Shown here one piece after another: positions 9,110 to 59,006 of a stretch of DNA of 64,000 bases; within the stretch, counting starts at the first letter, position 1; each line of letters begins with the position of its first letter. Where the stretch lies: assembly GCF_030538755.1 (NCBI RefSeq), contig NZ_JAUNTJ010000006.1, positions 1 to 64,000 of the forward strand, read 5' to 3'. Made by a program: the position numbers and the translations under genes. The notes beneath the pieces are model-generated. The model was not told the origin of the DNA. It saw only the letters and a program-made list of their open reading frames with translations, and made no database searches. The stretch comes from Paracoccus sp. (in: a-proteobacteria). Lineage in GTDB: Bacteria; Pseudomonadota; Alphaproteobacteria; Rhodobacterales; Rhodobacteraceae.

Positions 9110-9110
9110 C

Positions 9111-33337: not shown

Positions 33338-33919
33338 TTACCGGCAGTTCGTCAGTTGCGCCTGATACATCGCCGACCGCTGGCTGACATTGCCCGCCAC
33401 GCGCAGCAGCCATGGCTTGTTCATATGCGATCCGCGGGCAAAGCCGCTGCGGCCCTCGTGATAGGCCAGATACTGCCCGCCCGCGTCCCATTTGGAAATG
33501 CCCAGACGGTTGGTGGTGCCGTGCATATACCAGCCCATGAAATCGGTGGCGTCGCGGATATTGTCGCGCCGGGCGCGGCGGTTGCCGGTTTCCTTGACGT
33601 ATTCATCCCAGGTGCCATCCAGCGCCTGACTATAGCCAAAGGCGCTGCTTTGCCGCCCGATGGGGATGACGCCCAATGCGTATTGATGCGGAGTGCGCGC
33701 ATCGCCGATGAATTTCGATTCCTGATGGATCGTGGCCATCTGCACATGCACCGGCACGCCCCAGCGCCGTTCGGTGGCCCGCATCGCGTTCATATAGGCC
33801 GGGCGTTCGCGCACCAGCAGGCACGCATTATCCAGATTGCGGGGCGCGGAATAATTACCGCCGCCACCACCGCATGATGCGACCAGCCCGACAATGGCCA
33901 GTTTCAAAAGCCTGTTCAT
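33338..33919 (-). CDS. Lipoprotein lytic transglycosylase (SLT domain)
   Basis: A protein of 193 aa. Lipoprotein-like signal (MNRLLKLAIVGLVASCGGGGG, lipobox VASC). The SLT fold has the catalytic Glu in IHQESKF, then SSAFGYSQALDGTWDEY (GxxQ block) and a terminal YLAYHEGRSGF. It cleaves peptidoglycan without water, leaving 1,6-anhydro ends. I chose the ATG at 33919 with GAGG five nt upstream; a GTG at 33922 is adjacent. The gene is monocistronic. Confidence 0.88.
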   Translation of the reverse strand: MNRLLKLAIVGLVASCGGGGGNYSAPRNLDNACLLVRERPAYMNAMRATERRWGVPVHVQMATIHQESKFIGDARTPHQYALGVIPIGRQSSAFGYSQALDGTWDEYVKETGNRRARRDNIRDATDFMGWYMHGTTNRLGISKWDAGGQYLAYHEGRSGFARGSHMNKPWLLRVAGNVSQRSAMYQAQLTNCR

Positions 33920-42104: not shown

Positions 42105-42196
42105 TCAGTTGCGCCATTGTGACGGGTCGCCTAGGATCGCGGCGAATTCCCGCCTGTTTGCGCGGGGGTATCGGACCAACAGGAAAGGATAACGAG

Positions 42197-43201
42197 ATGT
42201 TTGCAAAGCGGATCATGGCGGCTGCCGCAGCCCTGACGCTGGGGCTGACCGGGGTTGCCACTGCGCAGGAAATGAACTTTTTCCGGGTCGCCACGGGCGG
42301 CACGTCGGGCACCTATTACCCGATTGGCGGGCTGCTGGCGAATGCCATTTCCAACCCGCCCGGATCGCGCGCCTGCGAAGAGGGCGGGTCGTGCGGCGTG
42401 CCGGGGCTGATCGCCTCGGCTGTGGCCTCGAACGGGTCGGTTGCCAATGTGAACGCCATTCAGGGCGGCACCATGGAATCGGGCTTTGTGCAGGGTGACG
42501 TGGCCACCTGGGCGTTCAACGGCACCGGCATCTGGGAAGGCCAGCCCGCGGCTGACAAGGTGCGCGTCATCGCCAACCTGTATCCCGAATCGATCCACCT
42601 GATCGCCTCGGCCGGGGCGGGCATCAGCTCGGTCGCCGATCTGGCGGGCAAGCGGGTGTCGCTGGACGAGCCTGGCTCGGGGACGCTGGTGGATGCGCAG
42701 ATCATCCTGAACGCCGCCGGCCTGTCCGAAGCGGACATCCGCCCCGAATATCTGAAGCCCGAACAGGCCGCTGACCGGATGCGCGATGGCGCGATGGATG
42801 CGTTCTTCTTTGTCGGCGGCTATCCGACCGGCGCTGTGGCCGAACTGGCCAGCCAGCATGACGTGGTGGTGGTGCCGATCGACGGCGAACTGCGCGACAA
42901 GATTCTGGCCGACAGCAGCTTTTTCGCCGCCGATACCTTTCCGGCTGGCACCTATGACGGGCAGGACAGCGATGTGGACACCATCGCCGTGGGCGCGCAA
43001 TGGGTGACATCGGCCGATCAGTCGGACGATCTGGTCTATGGCATCACCGCCGCGCTGTGGAACGACAACACCCGCAAGCTGCTGGATGCGGGCCACGCCA
43101 AGGGCAAGATGATTACCCGTGAACATGCGCTGGACGGCGTGGGTATTCCGCTGCATCCGGGTGCAGAACGCTTTTACCGCGAAGCGGGTCTGCTGGAATA
43201 A
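42197..43201 (+). CDS. TRAP transporter solute-binding protein, TAXI family
   Basis: A protein of 334 aa. Signal peptide ends at GVATAQ. TAXI landmarks: FRVATGGTSGTYYPIGGLLAN, NVNAIQGGTMESGFVQGD, and DLAGKRVSLDEPGSGTLVDAQ. TAXI proteins bind small anions such as glutamate or other carboxylates; the ligand is not predictable. AGGAAAGGA lies before the ATG. A stem-loop with T-run follows, and then the fused permease. Confidence 0.93.
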   Translation: MFAKRIMAAAAALTLGLTGVATAQEMNFFRVATGGTSGTYYPIGGLLANAISNPPGSRACEEGGSCGVPGLIASAVASNGSVANVNAIQGGTMESGFVQGDVATWAFNGTGIWEGQPAADKVRVIANLYPESIHLIASAGAGISSVADLAGKRVSLDEPGSGTLVDAQIILNAAGLSEADIRPEYLKPEQAADRMRDGAMDAFFFVGGYPTGAVAELASQHDVVVVPIDGELRDKILADSSFFAADTFPAGTYDGQDSDVDTIAVGAQWVTSADQSDDLVYGITAALWNDNTRKLLDAGHAKGKMITREHALDGVGIPLHPGAERFYREAGLLE

Positions 43202-43210
43202 GATGACAGG

Positions 43211-43238
43211 TCAGGGGGCGTCAGCCCCCTGACTTTTT
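43211..43238 (+). terminator. Rho-independent terminator/attenuator between TAXI protein and permease
   Basis: Perfect 9-bp stem TCAGGGGGC/GCCCCCTGA, 4-nt loop, then CTTTTT. It lies 10 nt after the binding-protein stop and 54 nt before the permease start. Partial read-through would give more binding protein than permease. Confidence 0.85.
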
Positions 43239-43291
43239 GCCGCCAAGGCCAACAAGACCATGCCGCAGGGCATGCAAGAAGGAACCGGGGG

Positions 43292-45397
43292 ATGACCGAT
43301 CCAAACCGCGCCGCAAACCCGGCGCAGCACAGCACCCAGACACATGACGAAGATGCCATCGGCCATCTGAGCGCCGATGAATTGCAGGCGATCGAGGAAA
43401 AATACGATCCCGAGCTGCGCTTTCGCGATCTTTTGCCCTGGGCCACGGGTCTGGTGGGCATCGTTCTGTTTCTGCTGTCCTGCTATCATTACTATACCGC
43501 CGGTTTCGGCATTCCGCAGGCGGTGATCCATCGCGGGCTGCATCTGTCGGTGACGCTGGCGATTGTGTTTTTTGCCTTTTCCGCCTTTGGCAGCGGCGCG
43601 GTGCGGCGCGGGCCGCTGGATATTGGCGGGATGCCGGTCTGGGACTGGGCCTTTGCGCTGATGGGGGCTGCGGCGGCGCTGTATGTGCCGTGGATCTATT
43701 CCGATCTGGCCTTCCGCGTCGGCAATCCGACCACGCTGGACGTGACCATGGGCACGATCCTGATCGTCGTCCTGCTGGAGGCCGTGCGCCGGTCGATGGG
43801 CTGGCCCCTGCCGGTGATTGCGATGCTGTTCATGGCCTATGCCTATTTCGGCCAGCATATGCCGGGCATTCTGGTGCATCCGGGCGCAAGCTGGACGGGG
43901 ATCGTCAACCATCTGTATCTGACCTCGCAGGGGATTTACGGCACTGCGCTGGGCGTGATCGCGACATATGTGTTCCACTTTGTGCTGTTCGGGGTGATGG
44001 CCACGCGCATCGGGCTGGGGCAGCTGTTCATTGATGTGGCGGCGGCGCTGGCCGGGCGTTATTCGGGCGGGCCGGCCAAGGTGTCGGTGCTGTCCTCGGC
44101 GCTGCTGGGGTCGATTTCGGGATCGTCCATCGCCAATACGGTGACAACCGGCGCGCTGACCATTCCGGCGATGATCCGCATCGGCTATCCCCGCCATTTC
44201 GCCGCCGCAGTCGAGGCGGCGTCATCGACCGGGGGGCAGATCACGCCGCCGGTGATGGGGGCGGTGGCCTTTCTGATGATCGAATATCTGGGCGTGCCGC
44301 TGACCACGATTCTGGTGGCGGCGCTGGTTCCGGCCTTCATGCACTTTTTCGGCGTGCTGTTGCAGGTGCATCTTGAGGCGCGGCGTCTGGGCCTGCGCGG
44401 CCTGCACCCCGAGGAAATTCCCAATGCGCTGCGGGTGATCCGTCAGGGCTGGCTGTCGGTCGTGCCGCTGGTCATCCTGATCGCGGTGCTGATGTCGGGG
44501 CGCACGCCCTTTGCCGCCGCCTTCTGGGCGATTTCATCCTGTATCGTCGTGCTGCTGTTGCAGGAACTGATGGCCAAGGGCGTGGCCGGGGCGATCCGGG
44601 GCACCCTCCACGGCATCATCGAGGGCTTTGTTCTGGGGGCGAAACAGTCGCTGTCGGTCACGGCCGCCGCCGCGCTGGTGGGTGTGGTGATCGGGGTGGT
44701 GACGCTGACCGGCGTTGGCTTCAAGATCGCCTATATGGTCACGGGCACCGCGCAGGGCTGGGCCGCGGGGATGCACGCCTGGCTGGCCTTCCTGCCGTTC
44801 GAGGTGATGAGCATTGCCACCATGACGCTGCTGTTCACGCTGTTCATGACGGCCATCGTCTGCATCCTGATGGGCTGCGGCATCCCGACCACGGCGAACT
44901 ATATCATCATGGTTGCCGTGGCCGCGCCGATCCTTGGCCTGATGGGGGTCGAGCCGCTGGTGGCGCATTTCTTCGTGTTCTACTTTGGCGTGCTGGCGGA
45001 TGTGACGCCGCCCGTCGCGCTGGCCGCCTATGCCGGGGCCAGTATCGCGGGGGCCAACGGCTTCAAGGCCGGGAACACGGCCTTCCGCCTGTCGATGGGC
45101 AAGGCGCTGGTGCCCTTCGTCTTTGTGTTCCAGCCGGCGCTGCTGCTGGTGACGCAGGGCTTTACCTGGGGGGCCTTTGCGCTGGCCTTCTTTGGGGCGG
45201 TGGGCGGCATCTGGGCCTTGTCCACCGCGATCACCGGCTGGCTGTTCGCGCCGCTTTACCGGGTGGAACGGCTGGTTCTGGCGCTGGCCGCGCTGCTGCT
45301 GATCGCGCCGCATCCGGTGCCGACCGTGATCGGGGTGGTGCTGTTCCTGCCGATCATCGCGCGGCAGTTGCTGGGGCGCGGCACGGCCGCCGCCTGA
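43292..45397 (+). CDS. TRAP transporter fused permease (4TM+12TM), TAXI type
   Basis: A protein of 701 aa. About 16-18 membrane helices: the small (DctQ-like) subunit is fused to the large (DctM-like) one. Family blocks are GSISGSSIANTVTTGALTIPAM, EAASSTGGQITPPVMGAVAF and MGCGIPTTANYII. The polar N-terminal 45 residues (DDAIGHLSADELQAIEEKYDPE style) precede the first helix. It works as a sodium- or proton-driven importer with the TAXI protein. GGGGG precedes the ATG. Confidence 0.95.
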   Translation: MTDPNRAANPAQHSTQTHDEDAIGHLSADELQAIEEKYDPELRFRDLLPWATGLVGIVLFLLSCYHYYTAGFGIPQAVIHRGLHLSVTLAIVFFAFSAFGSGAVRRGPLDIGGMPVWDWAFALMGAAAALYVPWIYSDLAFRVGNPTTLDVTMGTILIVVLLEAVRRSMGWPLPVIAMLFMAYAYFGQHMPGILVHPGASWTGIVNHLYLTSQGIYGTALGVIATYVFHFVLFGVMATRIGLGQLFIDVAAALAGRYSGGPAKVSVLSSALLGSISGSSIANTVTTGALTIPAMIRIGYPRHFAAAVEAASSTGGQITPPVMGAVAFLMIEYLGVPLTTILVAALVPAFMHFFGVLLQVHLEARRLGLRGLHPEEIPNALRVIRQGWLSVVPLVILIAVLMSGRTPFAAAFWAISSCIVVLLLQELMAKGVAGAIRGTLHGIIEGFVLGAKQSLSVTAAAALVGVVIGVVTLTGVGFKIAYMVTGTAQGWAAGMHAWLAFLPFEVMSIATMTLLFTLFMTAIVCILMGCGIPTTANYIIMVAVAAPILGLMGVEPLVAHFFVFYFGVLADVTPPVALAAYAGASIAGANGFKAGNTAFRLSMGKALVPFVFVFQPALLLVTQGFTWGAFALAFFGAVGGIWALSTAITGWLFAPLYRVERLVLALAALLLIAPHPVPTVIGVVLFLPIIARQLLGRGTAAA

Positions 45398-45463: not shown

Positions 45464-45548
45464 GATTGTCAGCGAAACGTCATCATCCTGTCGCCTGCCC
45501 GACTCATGCCGCTGTTAACCAGCGGCTGAGGCAATTTTGGGGGCAGGC

Positions 45549-46313
45549 ATGTTTTCCTTGTCCGGGCGCAAGGCGCTGGTGGTGGGCATCGCCAACGATC
45601 AATCCATCGCCTATGGCTGCGCGCAGGCGCTGTGCGATCAGGGGGCCGATCTGGCGGTCACATGGCTGAACGCCAAGGCCGAACCGCATGTCCGCCCGCT
45701 GGCCGAATCGCTGGGGGCCGAGATCGTGGCGCCGCTGGATGTGTCGCAGCCCGACCAGTTGCAGGCGCTGTTTCAGCAGATCACCGACCGCTGGGGCCGT
45801 CTGGATGTGCTGATCCATTCCATCGCCTTTGCGCCGCGCGATGATCTGCATGGCCGGGTGATCGACTGTTCCGCCGCAGGCTTTGCGCAGGCGATGGATG
45901 TGTCGGTGCATTCCTTCCTGCGCATGATCCGCCTGGCCGAGCCGCTGATGCCCGATGGCGGCACCTGCATGTCGGTGTCGTTCTTTGGGTCGTCGCGGGT
46001 GGTGGATCATTACAACATCATGGGTCCGGTCAAGGCCGCGCTGGAAAGCGCCGTGCGCTATGCCGCCGCCGAACTGGGGCCAAAGGGTATTTCGGTTCAC
46101 GCGCTGTCGCCGGGGCCTCTGGCGACGCGGGCGGCCTCGGGGATCGACCATTTCGACGAGCTGATGCGCACCGCGACCGAGCGCGCGCCGATGCACCAGC
46201 TGGCCACGATTCAGGATGTGGGCGCGATGGCGGCCTTTCTGGCCTCGCGCGAGGCGCGCAATCTGACCGGCGGCGTTCATGCCATCGACGGCGGTTATTC
46301 CATCACGGCCTGA
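45549..46313 (+). CDS. fabI: Enoyl-ACP/acyl-CoA reductase FabI-like, variant active site
   Basis: A protein of 254 aa. SDR fold with the FabI-type cofactor loop [13 protein letters not shown]. The catalytic pair is Tyr155 and Lys162 (HYNIMGPVK). The first Tyr of the FabI triad (E. coli Tyr146) is Phe145 here: [11 protein letters not shown]-terminal [13 protein letters not shown] and IDGGYSI are typical. It reduces enoyl-thioesters with NADH. The first position in an operon with acyl-CoA genes, plus this change, suggests a specialised paralogue and not the housekeeping FabI; a CoA substrate is inference. I chose the ATG at 45549 over the one at 45537. Confidence 0.88.
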
Positions 46314-46332
46314 GTCACGAAAGGGAACTGCC

Positions 46333-48840
46333 ATGACCAGTCTATTCGATCTGTTCGACCCCGCCCATGATGCGCTGTATGGCCCGGCCAATGATGCCGG
46401 GCTGATGCTGGGCGACTGGCTGGTGAATGCGCAGTCCGAAATCGAGGCGCACAGCAAGACCGGCGACATCATCGCCAGCGCGTTTCAGCGGCAGATGCGC
46501 CATATCTCGGCCACGCATGGCGCCCGCGCCCGCGATACGGCCAATGCCACCGCCCGCGTGGTGCAGGGGTTCCGGCAGGCGCAGCAATCCCATGCGCTGG
46601 CGACGGCCTGGGCCAGCTATCTGACCGATGCCGCCGAACGGGCGGTGTTGACGGCGGATGCGCTGCGCCAGCGCGGCGACATCTTTCTGGAACACGAGGC
46701 GGCGGGCTGCCCGCCGGTGCTGATCTATGATTACGAGGTGGTGATGGACGGGGCCGACCAGCCCTATCCGTCGAACTATATGCTGCTGCGCATCCTGCCG
46801 CCCGAGGGCGTCAGCATCGACGACAGCCGCCGCCCCTATATCGTCATCGACCCGCGCGCGGGCCATGGCCCCGGCATCGGCGGGTTCAAATCCGACAGTC
46901 AGGTGGGCGTCGCCATGCGCGAGGGGCACCCGGTCTATTTCGTGTCCTTCCGCCGCGCGCCGGAACCGGGGCAGTTCCTGTCCTATGTCACCCGCACCGA
47001 GGCCGCCTTTGTGCGCGAGGTGATGCGGCGCCACCCCGATGCCTCGGCCCCGGTCATCATCGGCAATTGTCAGGGCGGCTGGGCCACGCTGCTGCTGGCG
47101 GCGACCAACCCCGATCTGACCGGGCCGATCGTCATCAACGGCGCGCCGGTCGCGCCATGGGCCGGGCGTGTGGGCGAAAACCCGATGCGCTATAACGCCG
47201 GGGTCTTGGGCGGGACGTGGATTCCGATGTTCCTGTCGGATCTGGGCGGCGGCATCTTTGACGGCGCGCATCTGGTGCAGAACTTTGAGCTGCTGAACCC
47301 CGGCCGCACGATGTTTCGCAAATACACCGACCTGTTCCGCGACATCGACAAGGGCACCGACCGCTTTCTGGAATTCGAAACATGGTGGGGCGGCTTTTTC
47401 CTGCTGACCGAACCGGAAATCCGCTGGATCGTGGAACAGTTGTTCGTCGGCAACCGTCTGGTCAAGAACGAGGCCCGGATCGAGCCGGGCCGGCCCATCG
47501 ACCTGAAAGCCATCCGCGCGCCGATCATCGCCTTTGCCAGCTTTGGCGACAATATCACCCCGCCGCAGCAGGCGCTGAACTGGATCTGCGAAACCTATAC
47601 CGATGTGAACGAAATCCGCATCCGGGGACAGCGGATCATCTATATGATCCATGAACAGGTCGGGCATCTGGGCATCTTTGTCAGCAGCCAGATCGCCAAT
47701 CGCGAACATTCGGAAATGGCCTCGACGATGAAGACCATCGAGGCGCTGGCCCCCGGTCTTTACGAAATGCGCATCGAGGATGTGACCGAAAAGAACGGCC
47801 GCACGCATTTCACCGTCGGTTTCGCCGAACGCACGCTGGACGACATTCGCGGCATCGACGACGGCTTTGACGATGAACGCCCCTTTGCCGCCGTGGCCCG
47901 CGCATCAGAGATGCAGGCGCAGTTTTACGAAGGCGCGGTGCGTCCGCTGGTGCGCGCGGCGGTGACGCCATCCATGGCCGAGGCGGGGCGGGTGCTGCAT
48001 CCGCTGCGGGTGCAGCGCGCGGTGATGTCGTCGCGCAATCCGGTCATGGGGCTGGTCGAAAGCGCCGCCGAAAAGCTGCGCGACAACCGCCATCCTGTCC
48101 ACGCCGACAACCCCTTTGTCGCCGCCGAGGCGCTGTGGGTGCAATCCGTCGAACAGGCGCTGGATTTCTGGCGCGACTGGCGCGACATGTGTTACGAGAT
48201 GACCTTTTTCGGCATGTGGTCGAACCCCTGGGCGCGCGCCTTTGGCCAAAGCCACGAGGCGCGGCGCACGCTGAAAGACGCGGGCGAATTGCGCGGCCTG
48301 CCCGAGGTCGCCAGCGCGCTGACCCAGATCGACAAGGGCGGCTTTGCCGAGGCGGTGATCCGCATGTTGATCCTGATGGTGGACAGCCGGGGCAATGTGC
48401 GCCGCGACCGTCTGGAACGGTCCAGCCGGGTGCTGACCTGCGACGAACCCTTCGCCAGCCTTGGCGCGGAAAAGCGCGCCATCATCATTCATCAGCAAAC
48501 CCTGATCGCCAGCTTTGAACGCGACCGCGCCATCGAAACGCTGCCGCTGCTGCTGCCCGATCCGGCGGATCGCGAACTGGCGATGGCGGTGGCGCAATAT
48601 ATCCCCGGTCGTCTGGATGAAATGTCGCCCGCCACGCTGGCTCTGCTGGACCGGATGCGCTCGGTTCTGGGGTTGGGGCCGATTACGGCGGATGTGAACG
48701 ACGATCCGCTTGCGCAACGGCACCCCAACGCGCAAGACAGTGCGCAAGACATGCCGGGCGCGGAACAGGCTGCGCCCAAGCCCGCACCGGCCAGTCGCGG
48801 GCGCAGAACCCGAAAGGCAGAGACTGATGCACTTGGTTAA
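46333..48840 (+). CDS. DUF3141 protein, PHA-synthase-like alpha/beta hydrolase
   Basis: A protein of 835 aa. Residues ~120-470 form an alpha/beta-hydrolase domain like poly(3-hydroxyalkanoate) synthase PhaC. The nucleophile box is GNCQGG with Cys246 (G-x-C-x-G-G, as in PhaC). The acid is Asp406 in FGDNITPP (PhaC: D-H-I-x-P) and the base is His445 in VGHLGIF (PhaC: SGHI). The ~120 N-terminal helical residues also recall PhaC. The ~370-residue C-terminal part is unique to DUF3141 and ends in a basic Pro/Ala tail. AAAGGGAA precedes the ATG at 46333. Acyl-transferase or thioesterase activity is inferred; it is much longer than PhaC (~560-600 aa). Confidence 0.9.
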
Positions 48841-50236
48841 CCGCACGCTGGATGAATTGCAGATCGGCGACACGGCCGAATTCCGCCGCCTGATTACGCT
48901 GGACGATCTGTTTTCCTTTGCCGTGATTTCCGGCAATTATAACCCGATGCACCTGCCGGACGAGGATGGCGACGGCGATGGCGTGCCCGAAAGCGTGGCG
49001 CCGGGCATGTTTCTGGCCTCGCTGTTTTCGGCGGCGCTGGGCACGCGGCTGCCCGGCCCCGGCACGCTGTATCGGCGGCAGGTGCTGAATTTCCACGAAC
49101 GCGCCCATTCCGGCGAAGAGGTCGTCTGCCGCGTTCGTGTGACCGGCAAGGAACCGGGCGGCATCGTGATGCTGGAAACCGAATTGCGCCGGGTCGGCGA
49201 TGACGTGCTGCTGCTGGATGGTCAGGCGACGGTGCAGGCCCCGACGCGCAAGTTCGACCGCGACGGGATCGAGGTTCCCGGCCTGCTGGTCGAACGGCAC
49301 CGCCATTTCAGCGCGCTGCTGGAAAAGGCCAGACACCTGCCCGCGCTGCCGACGGCGGTGGTCTGCCCCGACGATCCCAACTCGTTGGGGGGGGCGCTGA
49401 AGGCCGCGCATGAGGGGCTGATCGTGCCGATCCTGATCGGCAAGGCGGCGGCGATCCGCGCCACCGCGCAGGAACTGGGCGAAAGCCTTGACGGGATCGA
49501 GGTGATCGACATCGCCGGCGATGCCGAGGCCGCCGCCGAGGCCTGCCATCTGGTTCACGCGGGCCGCGCCGCCGCAGTGATGAAGGGGCATATGCACACC
49601 GATGATCTGCTGCGCCCGATGCTGTCGAAAACCCACGGGCTACGCGTCGGCCGCCGCTTTACCCATGTGTTCGTCATGGATGTGCCCAGCCGCCCCGAGC
49701 CGGTTCTGGTGACGGATGCCGCGATCAACATCGCGCCCGATCTGGCGACCAAGCAGGACATCGTTCAGAACGCGCTGGAACTGGCCGCTGCCATCGGGCT
49801 GGAACCGCGCGCGGGGGTTCTGTCGGCGGTGGAAACGGTGAACCCGGCGATCCAGTCATCCATCGACGCGGCGCTGCTGTCCAAGATGGCAGAGCGCGGC
49901 CAGATCACCGGCGGGCAGGTCGATGGCCCGCTGGCGATGGATAACGCCGTCGATATGGGTGCCGCCCGCACCAAGGGGCTGCGCGGCGAGGTGGCGGGCC
50001 GGGCCAATATTCTGGTGGTGCCCGACATCGACGCGGGCAATATGCTGGCGAAACAGCTTGCCTTTATCAGCCATGCCGAGGGGGCCGGGCTGGTTCTGGG
50101 CGCGCGGGTGCCGGTGATCCTGAATTCGCGGTCCGACAGCGCGGCCTCGCGCCTGGCATCCTGCGCGGTGGCGGCGCTGCATCATGCGGCGACCGGCGCG
50201 GGGCGGGGCGATCTGACCGGGGTGGCCGCACAATGA
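48827..50236 (+). CDS. MaoC hydratase - phosphate acetyl/butyryltransferase fusion
   Basis: A protein of 469 aa. Residues 1 to ~145 form a MaoC-like hot-dog domain ([15 protein letters not shown], a hydratase-2 motif variant, and [16 protein letters not shown]). Residues ~155-460 form a PTA_PTB domain ([44 protein letters not shown]). It could hydrate or dehydrate a short acyl-CoA and swap CoA for phosphate. Such fusions are annotated bifunctional enoyl-CoA hydratase/phosphate acetyltransferase. AAAGG precedes the ATG at 48827, which lies 14 nt inside the DUF3141 gene. It overlaps ackA by 4 nt. Confidence 0.92.
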
Positions 50237-51450
50237 ACCGCCCGACCAACCGCCCCACGGGGCACGACGTCATTCTGGCGCTGAACGCCGGGTCGTCCTC
50301 GTTGAAATTCGTGGTCTTTGCGGCGCAGGATGGCGACAGCGCGCTGGCCGAAGGTCTGGTGGACCGTATCGGCAGCGATGCGGCCAGCATCCGCCTGCGC
50401 GACGGGGCGGGCGCCGATCTGCCGGTGGCCGAGGGCCGCCCCGCCGATCACGCCGCCGCGCTGCAACTGGCGCTGGACAGCCTGTCGGCGGCGCTGCCCG
50501 ATGCGCGGGTGGTGGCCGTGGGGCATCGCGTGGTGCATGGCGGCACCACCTTTCGCGGCCCGGTGATCGTCGATGAGCCGGTGATGGCGCAGATCGAGGC
50601 GCTGCGCCCCTTTGCGCCGCTGCATCAGCCGCATAACATCGCCGGTATCCGCGCCGCGATGGCGGCCTTTCCGGGCGTGCCGCAGATCGCCTGTTTCGAC
50701 ACCGCCTTTCACCGCACCCACCCATGGGTGAACGATACCTTTGCCCTGCCCAGCAGCTTTTACGACGAAGGCGTGCGCCGCTATGGTTTCCACGGGCTGA
50801 GCTATGATTACATCACATCCGAACTGCACCGCATCGCGCCGCTGATTGCGGCGGGGCGGGTGGTGATCGCGCATCTGGGCAATGGCGCGTCGATGTGCGC
50901 GGTGCAGAATGGCCGCTCGGTCGCCTCGACCATGGGGTTCACGGCGCTGGACGGGCTGCCGATGGGGACGCGCAGCGGGCAGTTGGACCCCGGCGTGGTG
51001 CTGTATCTGATGGATCAGCGCGGTATGACCACCGCCGAGGTGCGCCGCCTGCTGTATGAAAAATCCGGCCTGCTGGGCCTGTCGGGCGGGCTGTCGAACG
51101 ACATGCGCACGCTGGAATCCGCCGCCACCCCCGAGGCGCAGCAGGCCATCGACTATTTCGTGTTCCGCATCCAGCGCGAGCTGGGCGCGATGGCGGCGGC
51201 CATGGGCGGCATCGACGCGCTGGTGTTCTGCGGCGGCATCGGGGAAAACTCGCGCCTGATCCGCGCACGGGTGTGCGAGCGGACGGAATGGATGGGCCTT
51301 GAAATCGACCATGGCCGCAATGACCGCAACGAAACCATCATCTCATCGGATGTGTCGCGCGGTCATGTCATGGTCATCCCCACCAACGAAGGGCTGGTGA
51401 TCGCCCGCGCGGCGCGCGATCTGTTGAATCTGGGGGGCAGCACGACATGA
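50233..51450 (+). CDS. ackA: Acetate/short-chain acid kinase AckA
   Basis: A protein of 405 aa. ASKHA fold: LALNAGSSSLKFVVF (phosphate 1), VGHRVVHGG with the substrate-site Arg, FDTAFHRTHP (catalytic Asp), YGFHGLSYDYI and HLGNGASMCAV, and GGIGENS. It makes ATP from acyl-phosphate (acetyl, propionyl or butyryl). ATGA overlaps join it to the transacylase fusion and to atoD, so acyl-CoA to acid plus ATP can run in one operon. Confidence 0.95.
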   Translation: MNRPTNRPTGHDVILALNAGSSSLKFVVFAAQDGDSALAEGLVDRIGSDAASIRLRDGAGADLPVAEGRPADHAAALQLALDSLSAALPDARVVAVGHRVVHGGTTFRGPVIVDEPVMAQIEALRPFAPLHQPHNIAGIRAAMAAFPGVPQIACFDTAFHRTHPWVNDTFALPSSFYDEGVRRYGFHGLSYDYITSELHRIAPLIAAGRVVIAHLGNGASMCAVQNGRSVASTMGFTALDGLPMGTRSGQLDPGVVLYLMDQRGMTTAEVRRLLYEKSGLLGLSGGLSNDMRTLESAATPEAQQAIDYFVFRIQRELGAMAAAMGGIDALVFCGGIGENSRLIRARVCERTEWMGLEIDHGRNDRNETIISSDVSRGHVMVIPTNEGLVIARAARDLLNLGGSTT

Positions 51451-52112
51451 AGGGCGCTTTGACACCGCAGGCGGCGGCGCAGATGATCCCCGACGGGGCC
51501 AGCGTGATGATCGGCGGCTTTATGGGGGTGGGGTCGCCGCACCGGATGATCGACGCGCTGGTGGCGCGGGGCGCGCGCGGGCTGACCGTCATCGCCAATG
51601 ACACCGCCCGGCCCGGCCATGGCATCGGCAAGCTGGTGTCGGCGGGGGCGGTGGCGCGGGTCATCACCTCGCATATCGGGCTGAACCCGGAAACGCAGGC
51701 GGGCATGATCGACGGCAGCATTCAGGTCGATCTGGTGCCGCAGGGCACGCTGGTCGAACGCATCCGCGCGGGCGGCGTCGGTCTGGGCGGGGTGCTGACG
51801 CCCACCGGCCTTGGCACCGAGGTCGAGGACGGCAAGCAGATCATCCAGATCGAGGGCCGCGATTTCCTGCTGGATCTGCCGCTGAAGGCCGATTTCGCGC
51901 TGTTGGCCGCCGCGCAGGCGGATTACATCGGCAACCTGTCCTATTCGTTGACGGCGCATAACTTTAACCCGGTCATGGCGCTGGCCGGGGCCACCGTCAT
52001 CGCCGAGGCGGATGTGATCGTGCCCGTGGGCGTGATCCCGCCCGATGCCGTGAAAACGCCCGGTGTGCTGGTCGATCACCTGCTGCTGCGCGCGACTCAT
52101 GGGGAAGGTTGA
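51447..52112 (+). CDS. atoD: 3-oxoacid / acetate CoA-transferase subunit alpha
   Basis: A protein of 221 aa. Family I CoA-transferase alpha subunit: IPDGASVMIGGFMGVGSPHRMIDAL in outline, then IANDTARPGHGIGKLV and SHIGLNPETQ. The C-terminal ATVIAEADVIVPVG is also conserved. It needs the beta subunit AtoA for activity. Possible donors are acetyl-CoA, butyryl-CoA and acetoacetate. ATGA overlap with ackA; 13 nt before atoA. Confidence 0.93.
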   Translation: MKGALTPQAAAQMIPDGASVMIGGFMGVGSPHRMIDALVARGARGLTVIANDTARPGHGIGKLVSAGAVARVITSHIGLNPETQAGMIDGSIQVDLVPQGTLVERIRAGGVGLGGVLTPTGLGTEVEDGKQIIQIEGRDFLLDLPLKADFALLAAAQADYIGNLSYSLTAHNFNPVMALAGATVIAEADVIVPVGVIPPDAVKTPGVLVDHLLLRATHGEG

Positions 52113-52125
52113 GGGGGAAAAGCCG

Positions 52126-52779
52126 ATGGATGCCAAGGAACTGATCGCCCGCCGCGTGGCGCAGGAAATCCGGCCCGGAATGCTGGTCAATCTGGGCATC
52201 GGCCTGCCCAGCCTTGTCGCCAGTTTCGTTCCCGCCGGGCGAGGCGTGTTCTTTCAGGCGGAAAACGGCGTCATCGGCCTTGGCGCCCGCCCGCCCGAGG
52301 GGATGGAGGACCCGAACCTGACCGATGCGGGCGGCGGTTTCGTGTCGGCGGTGCCCGGCGCGGCCTCTATCGACAGCGCGATGAGCTTTGGCCTGATCCG
52401 GGGCGGGCATCTGGATATGACCGTTCTGGGCGGCTTGCAGGTGGACGAGGCCGGGCATCTGGCCAACTGGAAGGTGCCGGGCAAGATGGTGCCGGGCATG
52501 GGCGGGGCGATGGATCTTGTGACCGGCGCGGCCCGCGTCATCGTGGCCATGCAGCACAGCGCGCGCGGGCAGGCCAAGATCGTGCGCCGCTGTTCCCTGC
52601 CGCTGACGGCGCGGCGCAAGGTTGATCTGATCGTCACCGATCTGGCGGTGATCGAGCCGACCGGCCACGGCCTGATCCTGCGCGAACGCGCGCCGGGCGT
52701 CAGCACCGACGCCATCCGGGCTGCGACAGAGGCGGATCTTGTCATTCCCGACGATGTGCCCGAAATGCAGTTGGGCTGA
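52126..52779 (+). CDS. atoA: 3-oxoacid / acetate CoA-transferase subunit beta
   Basis: A protein of 217 aa. The catalytic Glu that forms the CoA thioester is residue 46 in QAENGVIGLG. NLGIGLPSLVA and GGHLDMTVLGGLQVDEAG are family blocks. The ATG at 52126 follows GAGGGGG. It pairs with AtoD. The likely role is activation of a short-chain acid (acetoacetate, butyrate) with acyl-CoA. Confidence 0.93.
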   Translation: MDAKELIARRVAQEIRPGMLVNLGIGLPSLVASFVPAGRGVFFQAENGVIGLGARPPEGMEDPNLTDAGGGFVSAVPGAASIDSAMSFGLIRGGHLDMTVLGGLQVDEAGHLANWKVPGKMVPGMGGAMDLVTGAARVIVAMQHSARGQAKIVRRCSLPLTARRKVDLIVTDLAVIEPTGHGLILRERAPGVSTDAIRAATEADLVIPDDVPEMQLG

Positions 52780-52827
52780 CCCGGCTGGCATCCTGTCGGT
52801 CATGGTCGGCAATGGGGGGCAAAGCCG

Positions 52828-53700
52828 GTGACGCAGACGACGTTTCGCGCCCGCGACGGGGCGCGGCTGGCCTATCAGGACGAAGGGCAGGGCTTGCCCT
52901 TGCTGGCGCTGGCGGGGCTGACCCGCGACGGGCGCGACTTTGGCTATCTGGCGCGCAGGCTGGACGTCGATGCGGTGCGGCTGATCCGGCTGGACAGCCG
53001 CGGGCGCGGCGGCTCTGACTGGACCGGGCCGGACAGCTATATCGTCGGGCAAGAGGCGCAGGACGCGCTGGCGCTGCTGGATCATCTGGGGCTGGACCGC
53101 GCGGCGGTGATCGGATCGTCGCGCGGCGGTCTGCTGGGCATGGCGATGGTGGGGATGGCGCCGGGGCGCGTGTCGGGCATCTGTTTCAACGATGTCGGCC
53201 CGGTGATCGAACGCGACGGGCTGATGCGCATCGGCCAGTTCATCGGCGTGCGCCCCACCGTGTCCACGCTGGACGAGATCGCCGACCGTCTGCCCGCCGC
53301 CATGCCCGGTTTCGCCAATGTGCCGCCCGCCCGCTGGGCCGATGAGACCGTGCGCCATTATGTGCAGCAGGCCGATGGCGTGGGCCTGACCTATGACCCG
53401 GCGCTGCGTATCGCCTTTGACAAGGCGATGGAGGCGAACCCCTTGCCCGACGCATGGCCCTTGTTCGATGCCTGCGCGGGCCTGCCGCTGGCGCTGATCC
53501 GGGGGGCTGGCTCGGACGTGCTGACGCGCGCCACCGCCGCCGAGATGCGCCGCCGCCGTCCCGACCTGCTGTTCGCCGAAATCCCCGACCGTGGCCACAT
53601 CCCCTTTCTGGATGAACCGCAGGCGCTGGCGGTGATCCACGACTGGCTGGACCTGATCCGCGCCCAAGGCCCGGTCCCCGGCGGCGATGCGGCCGGGTAA
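52828..53700 (+). CDS. Alpha/beta hydrolase
   Basis: A protein of 290 aa with a GTG start; GGGGGG lies 10 nt upstream. The nucleophile is Ser98 in GSSRGG; the acid/base end is DRGHIPFLDEP with the catalytic His. LDSRGRGGSDW is the usual loop after strand 4. It looks like an esterase or lactonase of the 3-oxoadipate enol-lactonase type. Located 48 nt after atoA, it may be the last gene of the operon, perhaps releasing hydroxyacids from esters or oligomers; this is inference. Confidence 0.85.
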   Translation: MTQTTFRARDGARLAYQDEGQGLPLLALAGLTRDGRDFGYLARRLDVDAVRLIRLDSRGRGGSDWTGPDSYIVGQEAQDALALLDHLGLDRAAVIGSSRGGLLGMAMVGMAPGRVSGICFNDVGPVIERDGLMRIGQFIGVRPTVSTLDEIADRLPAAMPGFANVPPARWADETVRHYVQQADGVGLTYDPALRIAFDKAMEANPLPDAWPLFDACAGLPLALIRGAGSDVLTRATAAEMRRRRPDLLFAEIPDRGHIPFLDEPQALAVIHDWLDLIRAQGPVPGGDAAG

Positions 53701-53841: not shown

Positions 53842-54858
53842 ATGCACGCTGCCCTGTTGCTTGGGTCGGCCCGCTGCGGATCAACGCTGGTATCACAGAT
53901 CATCCGCCAGCACCCCGATGTGCTGAGCCTGTCGGAACTGTTCATCGGGCTTGGTCCCTATGGCTATCGCCCTGACCGCTGCGACGGGCGCACCTTTTGG
54001 CGGCACCTGACGCAACCCACGCCCCTGATGCGCCGTCTGGCCAATCCCGACACGATGCCGGACGAATTTCTGTATCACCGTGTCGAAAACCGCCGCCACG
54101 ATCCGTTCAACTGCCCGCCGGTGCTGAACATCATGCTGCCGCATCTGACCGACCGGCCCGATGATCTGCTGGATGCGCTGGGGGCCGAGGTGGTCACATG
54201 GCCGCTGCGGCCGCTGGCCGATCAGTATCTCGCCCTGTTTGCGGCGCTGGACAGGCTGGTGCCGGGCGGGCCGCGCAAGGTCTGGGCCGAACGCTCGGGC
54301 GGGTCATTGGTGGCGGTGCGGACGCTGCGGCGCATGTTCCCGCAGGCGCGGCTGGTGCTGTTGCGGCGCAACGGGGCGGCGACGGCGTTAAGCCTGCGCC
54401 AGTTCACCATGGCCCGCGCGCCGGTCTGGCTGTGGAAAACCGGGCTGCCCTGGGTGAACACGCTGAATCCGCGACATCATTTCGGGCGCGGTCCATTCTG
54501 GCCGCTGCTGTGCCGGATGGGCGGGCTGCCGGGGGTGAACCATCTGCTGACGAAACGGCCCTCGGTCGTGGATTGCGGGCGGTTCTGGTCGGACATGATG
54601 CAGACCGCCGTGGCTGAACTGCGCGGCGCCGATGTGACGGTGATCCGTTATGAGCAGTTGCTGGCCGATCCGCCCCGGCAGATCGTGCGGCTGGGGATGG
54701 CGGTTGCGGGCAATGCACCGCCCGGCTGGGTTGCGGCGACGGCGCATCTGCCCATGGCGCGGGTGTCGCAACTGGATGCGCTGTCCCCCGCCGACCGCCG
54801 CGCCCTGCTGGCCGCCTGCGAACCGGGCGAGGCGGCGCTGGATATGCTTGGCCGGTAA
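53842..54858 (+). CDS. Sulfotransferase-like protein
   Basis: A protein of 338 aa. The N-terminal P-loop GSARCGSTLVSQII corresponds to the PAPS 5'-phosphosulfate site, and ARLVLLRRNGAATALSLRQF to the 3' site. VTVIRYEQLLADPPRQI is the typical late block. It is unrelated in detail to the sulfotransferase at 12102. Acceptor unknown. GGAGAGG precedes the ATG. It is monocistronic. Confidence 0.83.
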   Translation: MHAALLLGSARCGSTLVSQIIRQHPDVLSLSELFIGLGPYGYRPDRCDGRTFWRHLTQPTPLMRRLANPDTMPDEFLYHRVENRRHDPFNCPPVLNIMLPHLTDRPDDLLDALGAEVVTWPLRPLADQYLALFAALDRLVPGGPRKVWAERSGGSLVAVRTLRRMFPQARLVLLRRNGAATALSLRQFTMARAPVWLWKTGLPWVNTLNPRHHFGRGPFWPLLCRMGGLPGVNHLLTKRPSVVDCGRFWSDMMQTAVAELRGADVTVIRYEQLLADPPRQIVRLGMAVAGNAPPGWVAATAHLPMARVSQLDALSPADRRALLAACEPGEAALDMLGR

Positions 54859-55439: not shown

Positions 55440-56237
55440 TCAGATCACCATATGCCGAACCTTGGCCGAGACCCATTCGCTGATGACGACGGTGCCAAGG
55501 ATCACCAGAATAATCAGCGACACCTGCGGCCATGCCAGCACGTTCAGGCTGGATTGCAACTGCATCCCGATGCCGCCCGCGCCCACCAGCCCCAGAATCG
55601 CGCTTTCGCGGATGTTGATGTCCCAGCGGAACACGCTGATGCCGTAGAATGTCGGCAGCACCTGCGGCACGATGCCATAGCTCAGCACCTGCGCCTGCGA
55701 TGCGCCGGTGGCGGTGATCGCCTCGATCTGCCTGATGTCGGTTTCCTCGATCGCTTCATACAGCAGCTTGCCGATGAACCCGACCGAGCGGAATCCGATG
55801 GCGATGATCCCGGCCAGAATCCCCGGCCCAAGGATCGACACCAGCAGCAAGGCCCAGATCAGCGAATTGATCGAGCGTGACGCCACGATGCAGAACAGCG
55901 CAAAGGGGCGCAGGATCAGCGCCGAAGGCGTGGTGTTGCGCGCCGCCAGAAAGGCCAGCGGCACGGCGATGACGATGCCCAGCAGCGTGCCCAGCGTGGC
56001 GATGTTGATCGTGTCCCACAAAGGCGCCCACAGCCGCTCCATATAGGACCAGCGCGGCGGCACGGCGCGGCCCAGCAGGTCGCCCGCCGCCTGCGGTGCG
56101 TCCCGGACAAAGCCCCAGTTGGTGCGCGCCGTCATCAGGTTCCAGCACCAGACGAACAGCGCGACGGTGGCGAACCAGCCCGCCCAGATCAGCAGGCGCG
56201 TGCGGGGGGTGCGGTATTGCCAGACCTGATCCATCAT
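55440..56237 (-). CDS. phnE: Phosphonate/phosphite ABC transporter permease PhnE (second)
   Basis: A protein of about 265 aa with six membrane helices. PhnE landmarks: TINIATLGTLLGIVIAVPLAF, ARNTTP, IRQIEAITATGASQAQVLSYGIVPQ (EAA loop with G) and RWDINIRESAILGLVGAGGIG. I chose the ATG at 56237, which overlaps the stop of the first permease gene by 4 nt; the ATG at 56246 is an alternative. It likely forms a heterodimer with the other PhnE. Confidence 0.9.
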   Translation of the reverse strand: MMDQVWQYRTPRTRLLIWAGWFATVALFVWCWNLMTARTNWGFVRDAPQAAGDLLGRAVPPRWSYMERLWAPLWDTINIATLGTLLGIVIAVPLAFLAARNTTPSALILRPFALFCIVASRSINSLIWALLLVSILGPGILAGIIAIGFRSVGFIGKLLYEAIEETDIRQIEAITATGASQAQVLSYGIVPQVLPTFYGISVFRWDINIRESAILGLVGAGGIGMQLQSSLNVLAWPQVSLIILVILGTVVISEWVSAKVRHMVI

Positions 56238-57031
56238 TGCACCCATTTGCGCAGATGCCCGGATGCGTATTCCGACAGCATCACGATGGCGATGATAATC
56301 AACAGGATCGCCCCGGCGCTGCTGTATTCATAGCGCGACAGCGAGGTGTTCAGCGTCGCCCCGATGCCGCCTGCGCCGACGATGCCGATAACGGCGGATT
56401 CGCGGAAGTTGATGTCCAGCCGATACAGCGACAGCCCGATCAGGCGCGGCATGACCTGCGGCTGGATGCCGTAATTGATAAGCTGCATCCAGCTTGCGCC
56501 GGTGGCGCGGATCGCCTCGGCCTGCTTTTCGTCGATGTCCTCGATGTCTTCGGCCAGCAGCTTGCCGATGAAACCGATGGTGGAAAAGGCCAGCGTCAGG
56601 AACCCGGCGAAGGCGCCGAATCCGAACAGCGCCACGAAAAAGATGGCGACGATGATTTCCTGCAAGGCGCGGCTGATGGCGATGATGCTGCGGCAGATCA
56701 GATACAGCCAGCGCGGGGCCAGATTGCGCGCCGCGCCGATGCCGATGGGGATGGAAATCAGCACGCCGACCACGGTGGATGTCAGCGTCATCGTCAGGCT
56801 TTCGACCAGCCCGGCTGAAATATCGCGCCAGCGGGTGGTGAAGTCGGGCGTCAGAAAGCCGGTGACGAACCGCTGCCCGCGTTCCATCCCGGCGGCGACG
56901 CGGGTCCAGTTCACCTCGATACTGCCGATGGCCAGCGCCAGATAGACCAGCGCGCCCAGGGTCAGCGTGATGCGCCAGAACCGCGAGCGGATCAGTTGCG
57001 GCGGCCGCCGCCATGTGCCGGGGTAGGTCAC
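56234..57031 (-). CDS. phnE: Phosphonate/phosphite ABC transporter permease PhnE (first)
   Basis: A protein of 265 aa with six membrane helices. It has [58 protein letters not shown] (EAA loop) and [21 protein letters not shown]. It overlaps phnC by 4 nt. The two permeases are only distantly alike outside the EAA loop, as usual for PhnE1/PhnE2 pairs. Confidence 0.92.
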
Positions 57032-57852
57032 AGCGCCTCCAGCATCTTTTCGCGGGCCTCGCGCTCATCGGCCTCGGCGGCGTCGTCGTCGGCGGATTGG
57101 CGCATGGCGGCCCAGTCTTCTTCGCCATAGATCGCGGTCAGGGCGTTTTCGGTCAGATCGGCAGGCGCGCCGTCGAACACGATCTGCCCGGCGCGCAGCC
57201 CGATGATGCGGTCGGTGAATTGCTGCGCCAGCACCACGTCGTGAATGTTGATGATCGCGGGCAACCCGCGTTCGCGGCAGATTTCCACGATCAGCCGCAT
57301 GATCTGGCGGCTGGTTTTCGGATCGAGGCTGGCGGTCGGTTCGTCCACCAGCAGCAGTTCGGGGTTCTGTTCCAGCGCCCGCGCAATGCCGACGCGCTGC
57401 CGCTGGCCGCCCGACAGCGCATCGGCGCGCTTATCGACATGCGCCGACAGGCCCACCCGGTCCAGCAGCTTGAAGGCGTTCTGCACATCGGCGGGCGGAA
57501 AGCGGCGCATCAGGCTGCGCCAGAAGCCGACATAGCCCAACCGCCCCGACAGCACGTTTTCCATCACCGTCAGCCGTTCGACCAGCGCATATTCCTGAAA
57601 GATCATGCCGATGCGGCGGCGGGCGCGGCGCAGATCACCGGCGCGCAGGCGGGTGATGTCGGTGTCGTTCAGCCGCACCGTGCCGCTGGTCGGTTCCACC
57701 AGCCGGTTGATGCAGCGGATCAGCGTCGATTTGCCCGCCCCCGATGGCCCGATCAGGCCCACGACCTGCCCGGCGGGGATGGTGAAAGACGCATCCGACA
57801 GCGCCTTGTCGCCGGTGCGATAGGTCTTGGTCAGGTTTTCGACGGTCAGCAT
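57028..57852 (-). CDS. phnC: Phosphonate/phosphite ABC transporter ATP-binding protein PhnC
   Basis: A protein of 274 aa. Walker [14 protein letters not shown]-loop [19 protein letters not shown], signature [16 protein letters not shown], Walker [14 protein letters not shown] and H-loop IINIHDV. The C-terminal ~30 residues are very acidic (DDDAAEADE) and not usual for PhnC. AAAAGGGG precedes the ATG. Confidence 0.94.
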
Positions 57853-57870
57853 CGGCGGCCCCTTTTACGC

Positions 57871-57895
57871 AAAAGGCGGGCAAGGTTGCCCCGCC
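57871..57895 (-). terminator. Attenuator-like stem-loop between phnD and phnC
   Basis: On the minus strand GGCGGGGCAA pairs with TTGCCCGCC (one bulge) around a 2-nt loop, followed by TTTT. It lies 22 nt after the phnD stop and 19 nt before phnC. It would keep binding-protein mRNA above transporter mRNA. Confidence 0.6.
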
Positions 57896-57916
57896 CGCCC
57901 GGATGTGATGCGGCGT

Positions 57917-58870
57917 TCAGTTGCAGGTATAGGTCACGCCCATCGCCTCGTCGATCTGGCGGATCACGGCCCAATGTTCCTGAAAGCTGATCGGGATGAA
58001 CTGGGTTTCGCCCTGCGGGGCGAATTCGGTTTCCAGCCCGGTGCCGGTCCAGTCAAAGCTGAAGAACGCCTGCTGGATCTTGTCCTGCAATTCGGGCGTC
58101 AGGTTGTGGACCACGCCGTAACCCGTGGTCGGGAAGGTGTCGGATTTATAGACCGTGACCAGATCATCGCTGTTCACCACGCCGCGCGCGGTCATGCGGG
58201 TCAGCACCGAATTGGCGATGGCGGCGGCGTCGTAATCCTTGTTCGCGACCCCCAGGATAGAGTTGTCATGCCCGCCCGAAAACGCCGGAGTATAGTCGCG
58301 TTCCACCTGCAAATCGAATTCCGATTCCAGCAGCGCCTGCGGTGCCTTGAAGCCCGAATTCGACGTTTCCGAGGTGAAGGCCAGCTGGCGCCCCTTCAGA
58401 TCGGACAATTCGCTGATGCCGCTGTCGGGATAGGTGATGATTTCCATCTCGTATCCATACGACCCGTCGGCATTGGCCATCATCGCAAAGGGGCGAAAGC
58501 CCGAACAGGCCACCGCGATCGCGTTGCCGCCGGTGTTCACGCCCGCGATGTGCAGACGGCCCGCGCGCATGGCTTCGTATTGCGCGGCGTTGTTTTGCAC
58601 CGGAAAGAACTCGACCGGCTTGCCGGTGACCTCGCTCAGGTGGTCCAGAAACTCTTTCCACACATCGACGTAAACCGCCGGGTCTTCGACCGGGGTATAG
58701 GCAAAGATCAGCGTGGCCGGGTCAACCTGCTGCGCCGGATCCGAGGGGATGTCGGCGACCATATCGCCATCGGCGTCGGTAAAGCGGGCGTCCAGCGCGA
58801 ATTCGGCGCTGGCGGGGATGGCGATCAGACTGGCCAATGCGGTTGCTGCGGCAAGGCGAAAGAGGGTCAT
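57917..58870 (-). CDS. phnD: Phosphonate/phosphite ABC transporter substrate-binding protein PhnD
   Basis: A protein of 317 aa. Signal peptide (MTLFRLAAATALASLIAIPASA). PhnD landmarks are VEFFPVQNNAAQYEAMRAG, HIAGVNTGGNAIAV and the ligand loop AFTSETSNSGFKAPQALL. It could bind phosphonates, phosphite or phosphate. No C-P lyase or phosphite dehydrogenase gene is in the window. GGAG lies 8 nt before the ATG. It is the first gene of phnD-C-E-E. The frame is open far upstream on non-coding DNA. Confidence 0.93.
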   Translation of the reverse strand: MTLFRLAAATALASLIAIPASAEFALDARFTDADGDMVADIPSDPAQQVDPATLIFAYTPVEDPAVYVDVWKEFLDHLSEVTGKPVEFFPVQNNAAQYEAMRAGRLHIAGVNTGGNAIAVACSGFRPFAMMANADGSYGYEMEIITYPDSGISELSDLKGRQLAFTSETSNSGFKAPQALLESEFDLQVERDYTPAFSGGHDNSILGVANKDYDAAAIANSVLTRMTARGVVNSDDLVTVYKSDTFPTTGYGVVHNLTPELQDKIQQAFFSFDWTGTGLETEFAPQGETQFIPISFQEHWAVIRQIDEAMGVTYTCN

Positions 58871-59006
58871 CGGATGCTCCGGTTCGACAGGGTTCCGGTG
58901 GGGTGTAGGGGTGGCGGATGACTCTTTTACGACCGGAATGTGACGGTTTTGTGACAATCTGCCACCGCCGCTGCCGGTGGTCAAGGCAGAGGTGCCGCGC
59001 CGACAG

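Follow-up and report, generated by a model that had tools for sequence, protein, structure and literature searches.

A DUF3141 operon with a PHO-box-like upstream repeat in Paracoccus and its possible role in the discharge of short acyl-CoA

The locus described here raises the question of what is accomplished by a seven-gene operon in which a DUF3141 protein, resembling the polyhydroxyalkanoate (PHA) synthase PhaC, is encoded together with enzymes of acyl-coenzyme A (acyl-CoA) and acyl-phosphate metabolism. The operon occupies positions 45549..53700 of a 64,000-nucleotide (nt) stretch of Paracoccus sp. DNA (contig NZ_JAUNTJ010000006.1, assembly GCF_030538755.1), referred to as the window. The best explanation, which we put forward tentatively, is a Pho-linked operon that would discharge short acyl-CoA (C2-C4) related to polyhydroxybutyrate (PHB) to the free acids, recovering CoA, NAD+ and ATP without respiration. 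The gene set, its recurrence in other genomes, the active-site residues and a PHO-like site upstream were observed directly in the sequences. The core of the set is already known, and in the window it is extended by further genes.

The features that enter the argument are listed by position, strand and assignment.

45467..45493, + strand: PHO-box-like triple direct repeat with an 11-bp period, TGTCAGCGAAACGTCATCATCCTGTCG, 2 mismatches to TGTCA-N6-TGTCA-N6-TGTCA
45549..46313, + strand: FabI-type enoyl-thioester reductase, PRK07533 group (NF005717, 420.6 bits, cut-off 337)
46333..48840, + strand: DUF3141 protein, PhaC-like alpha/beta hydrolase, C246-D406-H445 (PF11339, 749.5 bits)
48827..50236, + strand: MaoC domain (N37-H42) fused to a short phosphotransacylase (NF006045/PRK08190, 593.3 bits, cut-off 282)
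50233..51450, + strand: AckA, acetate/propionate-type kinase (TIGR00016, 398.3 bits, cut-off 293.4)
51447..52112, + strand: CoA-transferase subunit A, AtoD-like (TIGR02429, 215.2 bits, cut-off 128.5)
52126..52779, + strand: CoA-transferase subunit B, AtoA-like, Glu46 present (TIGR02428, 291.6 bits, cut-off 243.55)
52828..53700, + strand: alpha/beta hydrolase, S98-D230-H257 (PF12697, 52.6 bits)
58930..58956, - strand: PHO-like triple repeat before phnD, an internal comparison, 3 mismatches

Recomputation of the coordinates placed all seven genes on the + strand with gaps, from fabI through the hydrolase gene, of 19, -14, -4, -4, 13 and 48 nt, as an earlier note on this DNA had stated. These sizes depend on the chosen starts, since in the mechanical list of open reading frames (ORFs) fabI, DUF3141, MaoC-PTA and atoA could also begin at earlier start codons. 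The names given in that note to the first six genes were supported by the family scores, while the seventh could be assigned only to Abhydrolase in general, with all the NCBIfam models listed for it scoring far under cut-off. Ser, Asp and His nevertheless occupy its triad positions, and S98-D230-H257 was kept in 11/11 homologous loci.

Recurrence of the gene set around DUF3141

The neighborhoods of DUF3141 genes were compared in two sets. The named set comprised the nearest 80 of at least 582 loci and is for that reason biased to near relatives. A sampled set of 53 full-length loci scoring above 480 bits was taken from genomes sampled evenly across the family, the class and the phylum, the window's own genome being excluded; 16 came from the search of the window's own family, three genomes contributed two loci each, two copies contained stops (G648 and G710) and several were cut by contig ends. 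Three loci already present in the named set, each with the full core of fabI, pta and ackA, were removed, leaving 50 sampled loci. Neighbors were counted within 6 kb at 40% identity or more. A looser count without the identity floor found any core gene in 39/53, fabI in 36/53 and all three in 29/53 loci; the stricter count was preferred because the supposed fabI of locus L199 in the looser one was a 27% match to a short-chain dehydrogenase/reductase. Clustering of neighbors, with which shadow ORFs interfere, was used for candidate finding only.

Among the 50 sampled loci, fabI was present in 32, pta in 29 and ackA in 29, with all three in 26 and any of them in 35; atoDA (9), HBD-like genes (5), the hydrolase (4) and PhaC (1) were less frequent. 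When the sets were pooled (130 unique loci), 87 had at least one core gene and 51 had all three, while atoDA was found in 24, 23 of which also had a core gene. Both 6-kb flanks were available for 90 loci, of which 66 had any core gene and 39 the complete core. The 130 loci fell into 41 gene arrangements (the MaoC domain being ignored, DUF3141 alone counting as one and contig-cut loci included), and 22 of these held all three core genes. The recurrence of the same gene content in shuffled order argues for a joint function.

On a quick DUF3141 tree, with absence scored only where both 6-kb flanks were available, the minimum number of changes was 22 for pta-ackA, 21 for fabI and 12 for atoDA. For pta-ackA against fabI, 18 independent pairs gave on average 10 changes in the same direction and 1 in the opposite direction (median p 0.012, range 0.002-0.07). 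The neighbors of DUF3141 were thus not random, and the linkage counts bear out the suggestion that these genes form a recurring functional group: the grouping is real, not chance.

DUF3141 was absent from the other two genomes of the window's genus among the matches listed (G023 and G792), so the operon is patchy in the genus. Three loci titled as Burkholderiaceae, Comamonadaceae and Ottowia metagenome-assembled genomes (L090, L092 and L093) encode DUF3141 proteins 68-69% identical to that of the window within similar gene sets, which reflects either transfer between classes or mis-binned contigs.

Predicted enzymes and their active sites

The Cys246-Asp406-His445 triad of DUF3141 was found in 130/130 unique loci. 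The protein gave a weak profile match to the PHA synthase 9knj (E 7e-5), only 33.1 bits against the PHA synthase model TIGR01836 (cut-off 365.3) and no PhaC_N match in the Pfam scan, which makes a PHA synthase unlikely. A PhaC-like protein of Halomonas O-1 with a GNCQAG box did not lead to PHA formation in E. coli (PMC8686332, PMC12229310); it is not the window protein, and its box and size suggest that it may be a DUF3141 protein. Its gene was expressed during PHA production in one transcriptome, and its PHA role is called unresolved by PMC12229310. DUF3141 is listed as a depolymerase in one genome paper (PMC8050969).

In the fusion protein, the sequence GNYNPMH of the MaoC half aligned with EDFNPLH of PhaJ (1iq6), so that Asn stands at the position of the catalytic Asp. 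Asp and His constitute the catalytic dyad of PhaJ-type hydratases. The residues at the two positions, read from the best MaoC match per locus in 47 unique fusions, were N-H in 24, D-H in 11, N-N in 6, N-M in 2 and N-S, E-Q and A-G in 1 each, with 1 unreadable; the Asp position was accordingly Asn in 33/47, Glu in 1 and Ala in 1. Sixteen fusions were at least 55% identical to that of the window, and the 15 that could be read were all N-H. The two positions are not uniform among more distant Rhodobacteraceae: they read D-H in Ruegeria meonggei (L113) and N-N in Mangrovicoccus (L121, L135). The domain was retained with the His lost as well as the Asp in L106, L110, L118, L121, L134, L135, L140, L141 and L220. 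Because Asn replaces the catalytic Asp, hydration by the window fusion is doubtful, and so is the hydratase step that had been ascribed to it earlier. Retention of the domain without its dyad residues suggests that it may have a non-catalytic role. A stand-alone MaoC protein in the same genome has both residues intact (STDRNPVH).

The specificity of the phosphotransacylase (PTA) half is not settled in favor of butyrate, as had been supposed. Its best stand-alone model was PRK11890, named phosphate acetyltransferase, at 394.5 bits (under the cut-off of 413), while the phosphate butyryltransferase models gave 292, 286 and 261 bits, all under cut-off, the 286 bits being against the Ptb equivalog TIGR02706 (cut-off 410.5); the classic Pta model TIGR00651 gave 56 bits. 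Among solved structures, the closest was the phosphate butyryltransferase 7vg9 at 198 bits, compared with 55 bits for the best phosphate acetyltransferase.

AckA, in which the GHRVVHGG motif is largely conserved, matched the acetate kinase 2iir at 324 bits and butyrate kinase at 29 bits, and the PRK07058 equivalog at 435.8 bits, under its cut-off of 486. Identity as a butyrate kinase was rejected on these scores. The AtoD-like subunit scored 278.7 bits against the acetate CoA-transferase alpha equivalog PRK09920, under the required 315. The closest solved relatives of the AtoA-like subunit were 9csc (3-oxoacid CoA-transferase B) and then 8k9h (butyrate-acetoacetate CoA-transferase B). Glu is the catalytic residue of AtoDA-type CoA-transferases, and E46 was present in 31/32 loci.

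FabI has the Tyr-x6-Lys pair at Y155 and K162, and the active-site Tyr and Lys were kept in 76/77 unique loci. Phe145 (Tyr in the aligned solved FabI chains) was considered as a diagnostic residue and dropped, because 45 of 80 loci have Y and 35 have F at this position. The assembly (3.01 Mb, 50 contigs, 86.8% complete) encodes three FabI copies, the other two being 41 and 43% identical to that of the operon; as a third copy, the operon FabI is an extra enzyme and probably not the housekeeping one. DUF3141 occurs once in the assembly. Two genes had a PhaC_N domain over cut-off, and HBD and BdhA, also over cut-off, were located elsewhere, on other contigs. The only other PTA domains were in two 759-residue ORFs that read, from their sequence, as malic enzymes, leaving the operon phosphotransacylase as the sole free one found in an assembly from which about 1/8 of the genome may be missing.

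Neighbors at other loci connect the set to C4 and PHB metabolism. In L180 the interval from atoA to the hydrolase contains genes for 3-hydroxybutyrate dehydrogenase (BdhA; TIGR01963, 356 bits, cut-off 307) and for a protein of the 3-hydroxybutyryl-CoA dehydrogenase (HBD) type, L086 (Fertoeibacter niger) has HBD alone at this position (PRK05808, 413 bits, cut-off 408) and L087 and L221 have ORFs resembling those of L180; the window itself has neither BdhA nor HBD there. Six loci have HBD-like matches adjoining DUF3141 that were left out of the HBD count; L151, the only one of them scanned, reached no HBD cut-off. A PhaC homologue was upstream of DUF3141 in 5/130 unique loci; the one scanned, a class I PhaC of Psychrobacter (L126; TIGR01838, 730 bits), is separated from DUF3141 by 200 nt. 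The listed gene closest to DUF3141 on its upstream side encodes a phasin on plasmids of Sinorhizobium americanum, whose locus lacks pta, ackA and fabI, and of Pseudomonas veronii, where phbB and phbC follow further on from phasin. A DUF3141 gene lies behind phaCAB in Pseudomonas umsongensis (PMC8601165). The recurrence of BdhA, HBD, PhaC and phasin as neighbors upheld the proposed link to PHA and C4 metabolism.

The PHO-box-like repeat and published relatives of the operon

A connection to phosphate had been overlooked. The triple repeat at 45467-45493 is located 55 nt before the fabI ATG, and its score was reached in none of 200 shuffles of the 200 nt upstream of the operon. With up to 3 mismatches allowed, the window contains 4 triple-repeat sites compared with 0.44 expected, a number reached in 0/100 shuffles. 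The repeat at 58930-58956 is 59 nt before the ATG (58870) of phnD on the - strand, and the remaining two are at 9085-9111 and 33363-33389. Upstream regions were assembled for 132 loci and the window (133 in all), a further locus being dropped because its upstream DNA was too short. Pairs of TGTCA at the 11-bp period occurred in 12/133 of these regions, compared with 1-5 at nine other periods. Of the 60 permutations of its letters, which averaged 2.4, GTCAT alone was higher than TGTCA, and it belongs to the same box. In L087, L179 and L097, as in the window, no shuffle of 200 scored as high as the natural region. The PHO-like repeat is a probable candidate for a phosphate-control site.

FNR/FixK sites with a spacer of 4 and at most one mismatch were present in 16/133 upstream regions, compared with 1-10 at nine other spacers, and in 18 against 5.2 expected when both strands and 30 nt more were included, hinting that oxygen may control the operon in other lineages. 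FNR/FixK control is not claimed for the window operon, there being no site within 2 mismatches in the window, and sigma-54 sites were not enriched in the upstream regions. One-mismatch FNR/FixK-like sites precede the DUF3141 gene or operon in L113, L150, L152, L155 and L201. A phaR mutant of Bradyrhizobium diazoefficiens showed higher expression of pta, ackA and fixK2 (PMC10888616).

The premise that no such gene set had been described proved wrong for its core. In S. meliloti an ORF-pta-ack-fabI operon is co-transcribed and induced through PhoB by phosphate starvation (PMC8231600, citing Summers 1999). The gene order DUF3141-pta-ackA-fabI in S. meliloti GR4 indicates that orfA of the published operon is probably DUF3141. 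The two operons are alike in gene content and may be alike in phosphate control, which in the window is suggested by the PHO-like repeat; the window differs in having fabI first, the MaoC-PTA fusion, atoDA and the hydrolase. The same source compares the S. meliloti operon with phaC-(phaJ-pta)-ackA-fabI clusters of Burkholderia sensu lato, where phaC groups D1 and D2 (phaC, phaJ-pta, ackA, fabI and in some phaB) share the core and the fused hydratase-phosphotransacylase with the window (PMC8231600). A P. xenovorans study also treats the phaJ-pta fusion (PMC12568896). The accessible descriptions of D1/D2 mention neither atoDA nor the hydrolase, and take the hydratase as active (PMC8231600, PMC12568896). 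In Halomonadaceae (Cobetia marina and Halomonas sp. SF2003), phaC1-fabI-bi-pta-ackA similarly places a PHA gene next to fabI, a fused pta and ackA, but that PHA gene is a true GYCLG-box PhaC1 giving PHA in C. necator PHB-4, where the window has DUF3141 (PMC8686332, PMC7175313). In Herbaspirillum, phaC2 is in an operon with pta-ackA, and all three were up in high-phosphate medium together with the Pho genes, as if phosphate were short (PMC8222739). A literature search, with most subscription papers outside its reach, found no account of the set with atoDA, BdhA or HBD, of the Asn change or of a butyrate route.

Adjacent to these features, phosphonate transporter genes (phnE, phnE, phnC and phnD, named from their translations) occupy 55440-58870 on the - strand, convergent with the operon. 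The repeat at 9085-9111 (- strand, 2 mismatches) is at the junction of two + strand ORFs, at the end of one, and is probably due to chance. TAXI-type TRAP transporter genes (42131-45397, + strand) end 151 nt before fabI, and a sulfotransferase-like ORF (53842-54858, + strand) directly follows the operon; both were named by inspection of the sequence. A phage or mobile origin was considered and rejected, with no match in phage records and 11 matching plasmid records, each covering at most 14% of the query.

What the operon may accomplish

In the scheme that we favor, DUF3141, a PhaC-like enzyme with a Cys-Asp-His triad that is probably no synthase, would move 3-hydroxybutyryl units between PHB or its oligomers and CoA. 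Another hydratase, perhaps the separate MaoC protein with its dyad intact, would supply enoyl-CoA, which the extra FabI would reduce with NADH, acting as a sink for it. AtoDA would exchange CoA between butyryl-CoA or acetoacetate and acetate, while the phosphotransacylase and AckA would convert acyl-CoA, chiefly acetyl- or propionyl-CoA, to acid and ATP. AckA need not accept butyrate, because AtoDA could hand the CoA of butyryl-CoA to acetate; the acetyl-CoA so formed would then be cashed in through PTA-AckA. Butyrate is a possible product. The clostridial ptb-buk route and the gut butyryl-CoA:acetate CoA-transferase route likewise convert acyl-CoA to acid and ATP, the latter by a CoA-transferase with recycling of acetate; the window, whose activity is predicted, differs in having an AckA-type kinase and FabI in place of butyryl-CoA dehydrogenase.

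A more specific form of this scheme is speculative and decidedly improbable as a whole: otherwise respiring bacteria would undertake a PHB fermentation triggered by phosphate starvation, the 3-hydroxybutyrate units being divided, with redox balance closed, between an oxidized branch (BdhA, AtoDA, thiolase and PTA-AckA, giving acetate and ATP) and a reduced branch (FabI giving butyryl-CoA, then butyrate via AtoDA), with the retired hydratase domain kept by the phosphotransacylase for the docking of acyl-CoA.

Several observations weigh against the favored scheme: 1) no core gene was nearby in 43/130 pooled loci, or in 24 of the 90 with both flanks available, and the association of atoDA with pta-ackA on the tree was not significant (median p 0.125), 2) the strict form CTGTCAT-N4-CTGTCAT, with up to 3 mismatches, gave 5 window sites compared with 3.14 expected and none at the operon, 3) a permuted control sharing TGTC was also above expectation (24 versus 12, up to 4 mismatches), 4) the shuffle test was patchy, p being at or below 0.01 in 7, at or below 0.05 in 10 and above 0.2 in 21 of 38 upstream regions chosen by hand from the 133, and among nine plasmid loci a two-mismatch site, a weak one, occurred in S. 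meliloti GR4 only, 5) the window fusion lacks the catalytic Asp and AckA is not Buk-like, 6) one classification groups DUF3141 with PHA synthases (PMC11878206) and 7) the substrate, the direction and regulation by PhoB are predictions.

A possible, if doubtful, alternative is acid uptake, with the set running in reverse: AckA-PTA and AtoDA would convert acetate, propionate, butyrate or acetoacetate to CoA thioesters as precursors for PHA synthesis. The reactions of both enzyme pairs are reversible, and an AckA of the acetate/propionate type suits this direction. It is also the interpretation given to such clusters by the authors of PMC8231600 and PMC8686332. An NADH-dependent enoyl reductase is a misfit, however, since making PHA from acids would require hydration of enoyl-CoA, not its reduction, and the PHO-like site gives no reason for uptake.

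The PHO-like repeats before fabI and phnD could instead indicate a response to phosphate stress, in which PTA-AckA would set acetyl-phosphate for PhoB-type signaling or push scarce inorganic phosphate into ATP, and the extra FabI, a member of the enoyl-acyl carrier protein (ACP) reductase family, would make ACP-bound chains for phosphorus-free lipids, the PHA link being secondary. Control of the S. meliloti operon by PhoB (PMC8231600) is in agreement, as is the rise of Herbaspirillum pta, ackA and phaC2 with the Pho genes, from which the authors suggest that acetyl-phosphate activates PhoB (PMC8222739). This explanation is unlikely, as it leaves the AtoDA, BdhA, HBD, PhaC and phasin neighbors unaccounted for.

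The linear route of the earlier note, in which the MaoC half dehydrates 3-hydroxybutyryl-CoA, FabI reduces the product and butyryl-CoA passes through butyryl-phosphate to butyrate and ATP, is similarly improbable. The solved match of the PTA half (198 versus 55 bits) and the conserved Tyr and Lys of FabI favor it, but the Asp position is Asn in the window and most fusions, an intact D-H dyad being found in 11/47, the kinase is not Buk-like and the stand-alone model closest to the PTA half bears the name phosphate acetyltransferase. That the genes adjoin by chance with no joint function is very improbable, for the loci in which DUF3141 stands apart from the core set are outweighed by linkage repeated in many orders, which contradicts it, and by the published co-transcription in S. 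meliloti (PMC8231600). The original observation was confirmed, together with the recurring group and its PHA/C4 context, while the hydratase step, the butyrate specificity and the novelty of the core were not.

DUF3141 is widespread in Proteobacteria, designated PhaC or PhaZ in some papers (PMC8050969 and clusters of the type in PMC8231600), and still listed in Pfam as a family of unknown function. PhaJ-like PTA fusions that appear in models of PHA pathways may hydrate nothing in many lineages. The recurring partners, the extended form that includes CoA-transferase and 3-hydroxybutyrate enzymes, the putative phosphate-responsive promoter site and the loss of the hydratase Asp make a vague annotation accessible to a small number of inexpensive assays of enzyme activity and expression.

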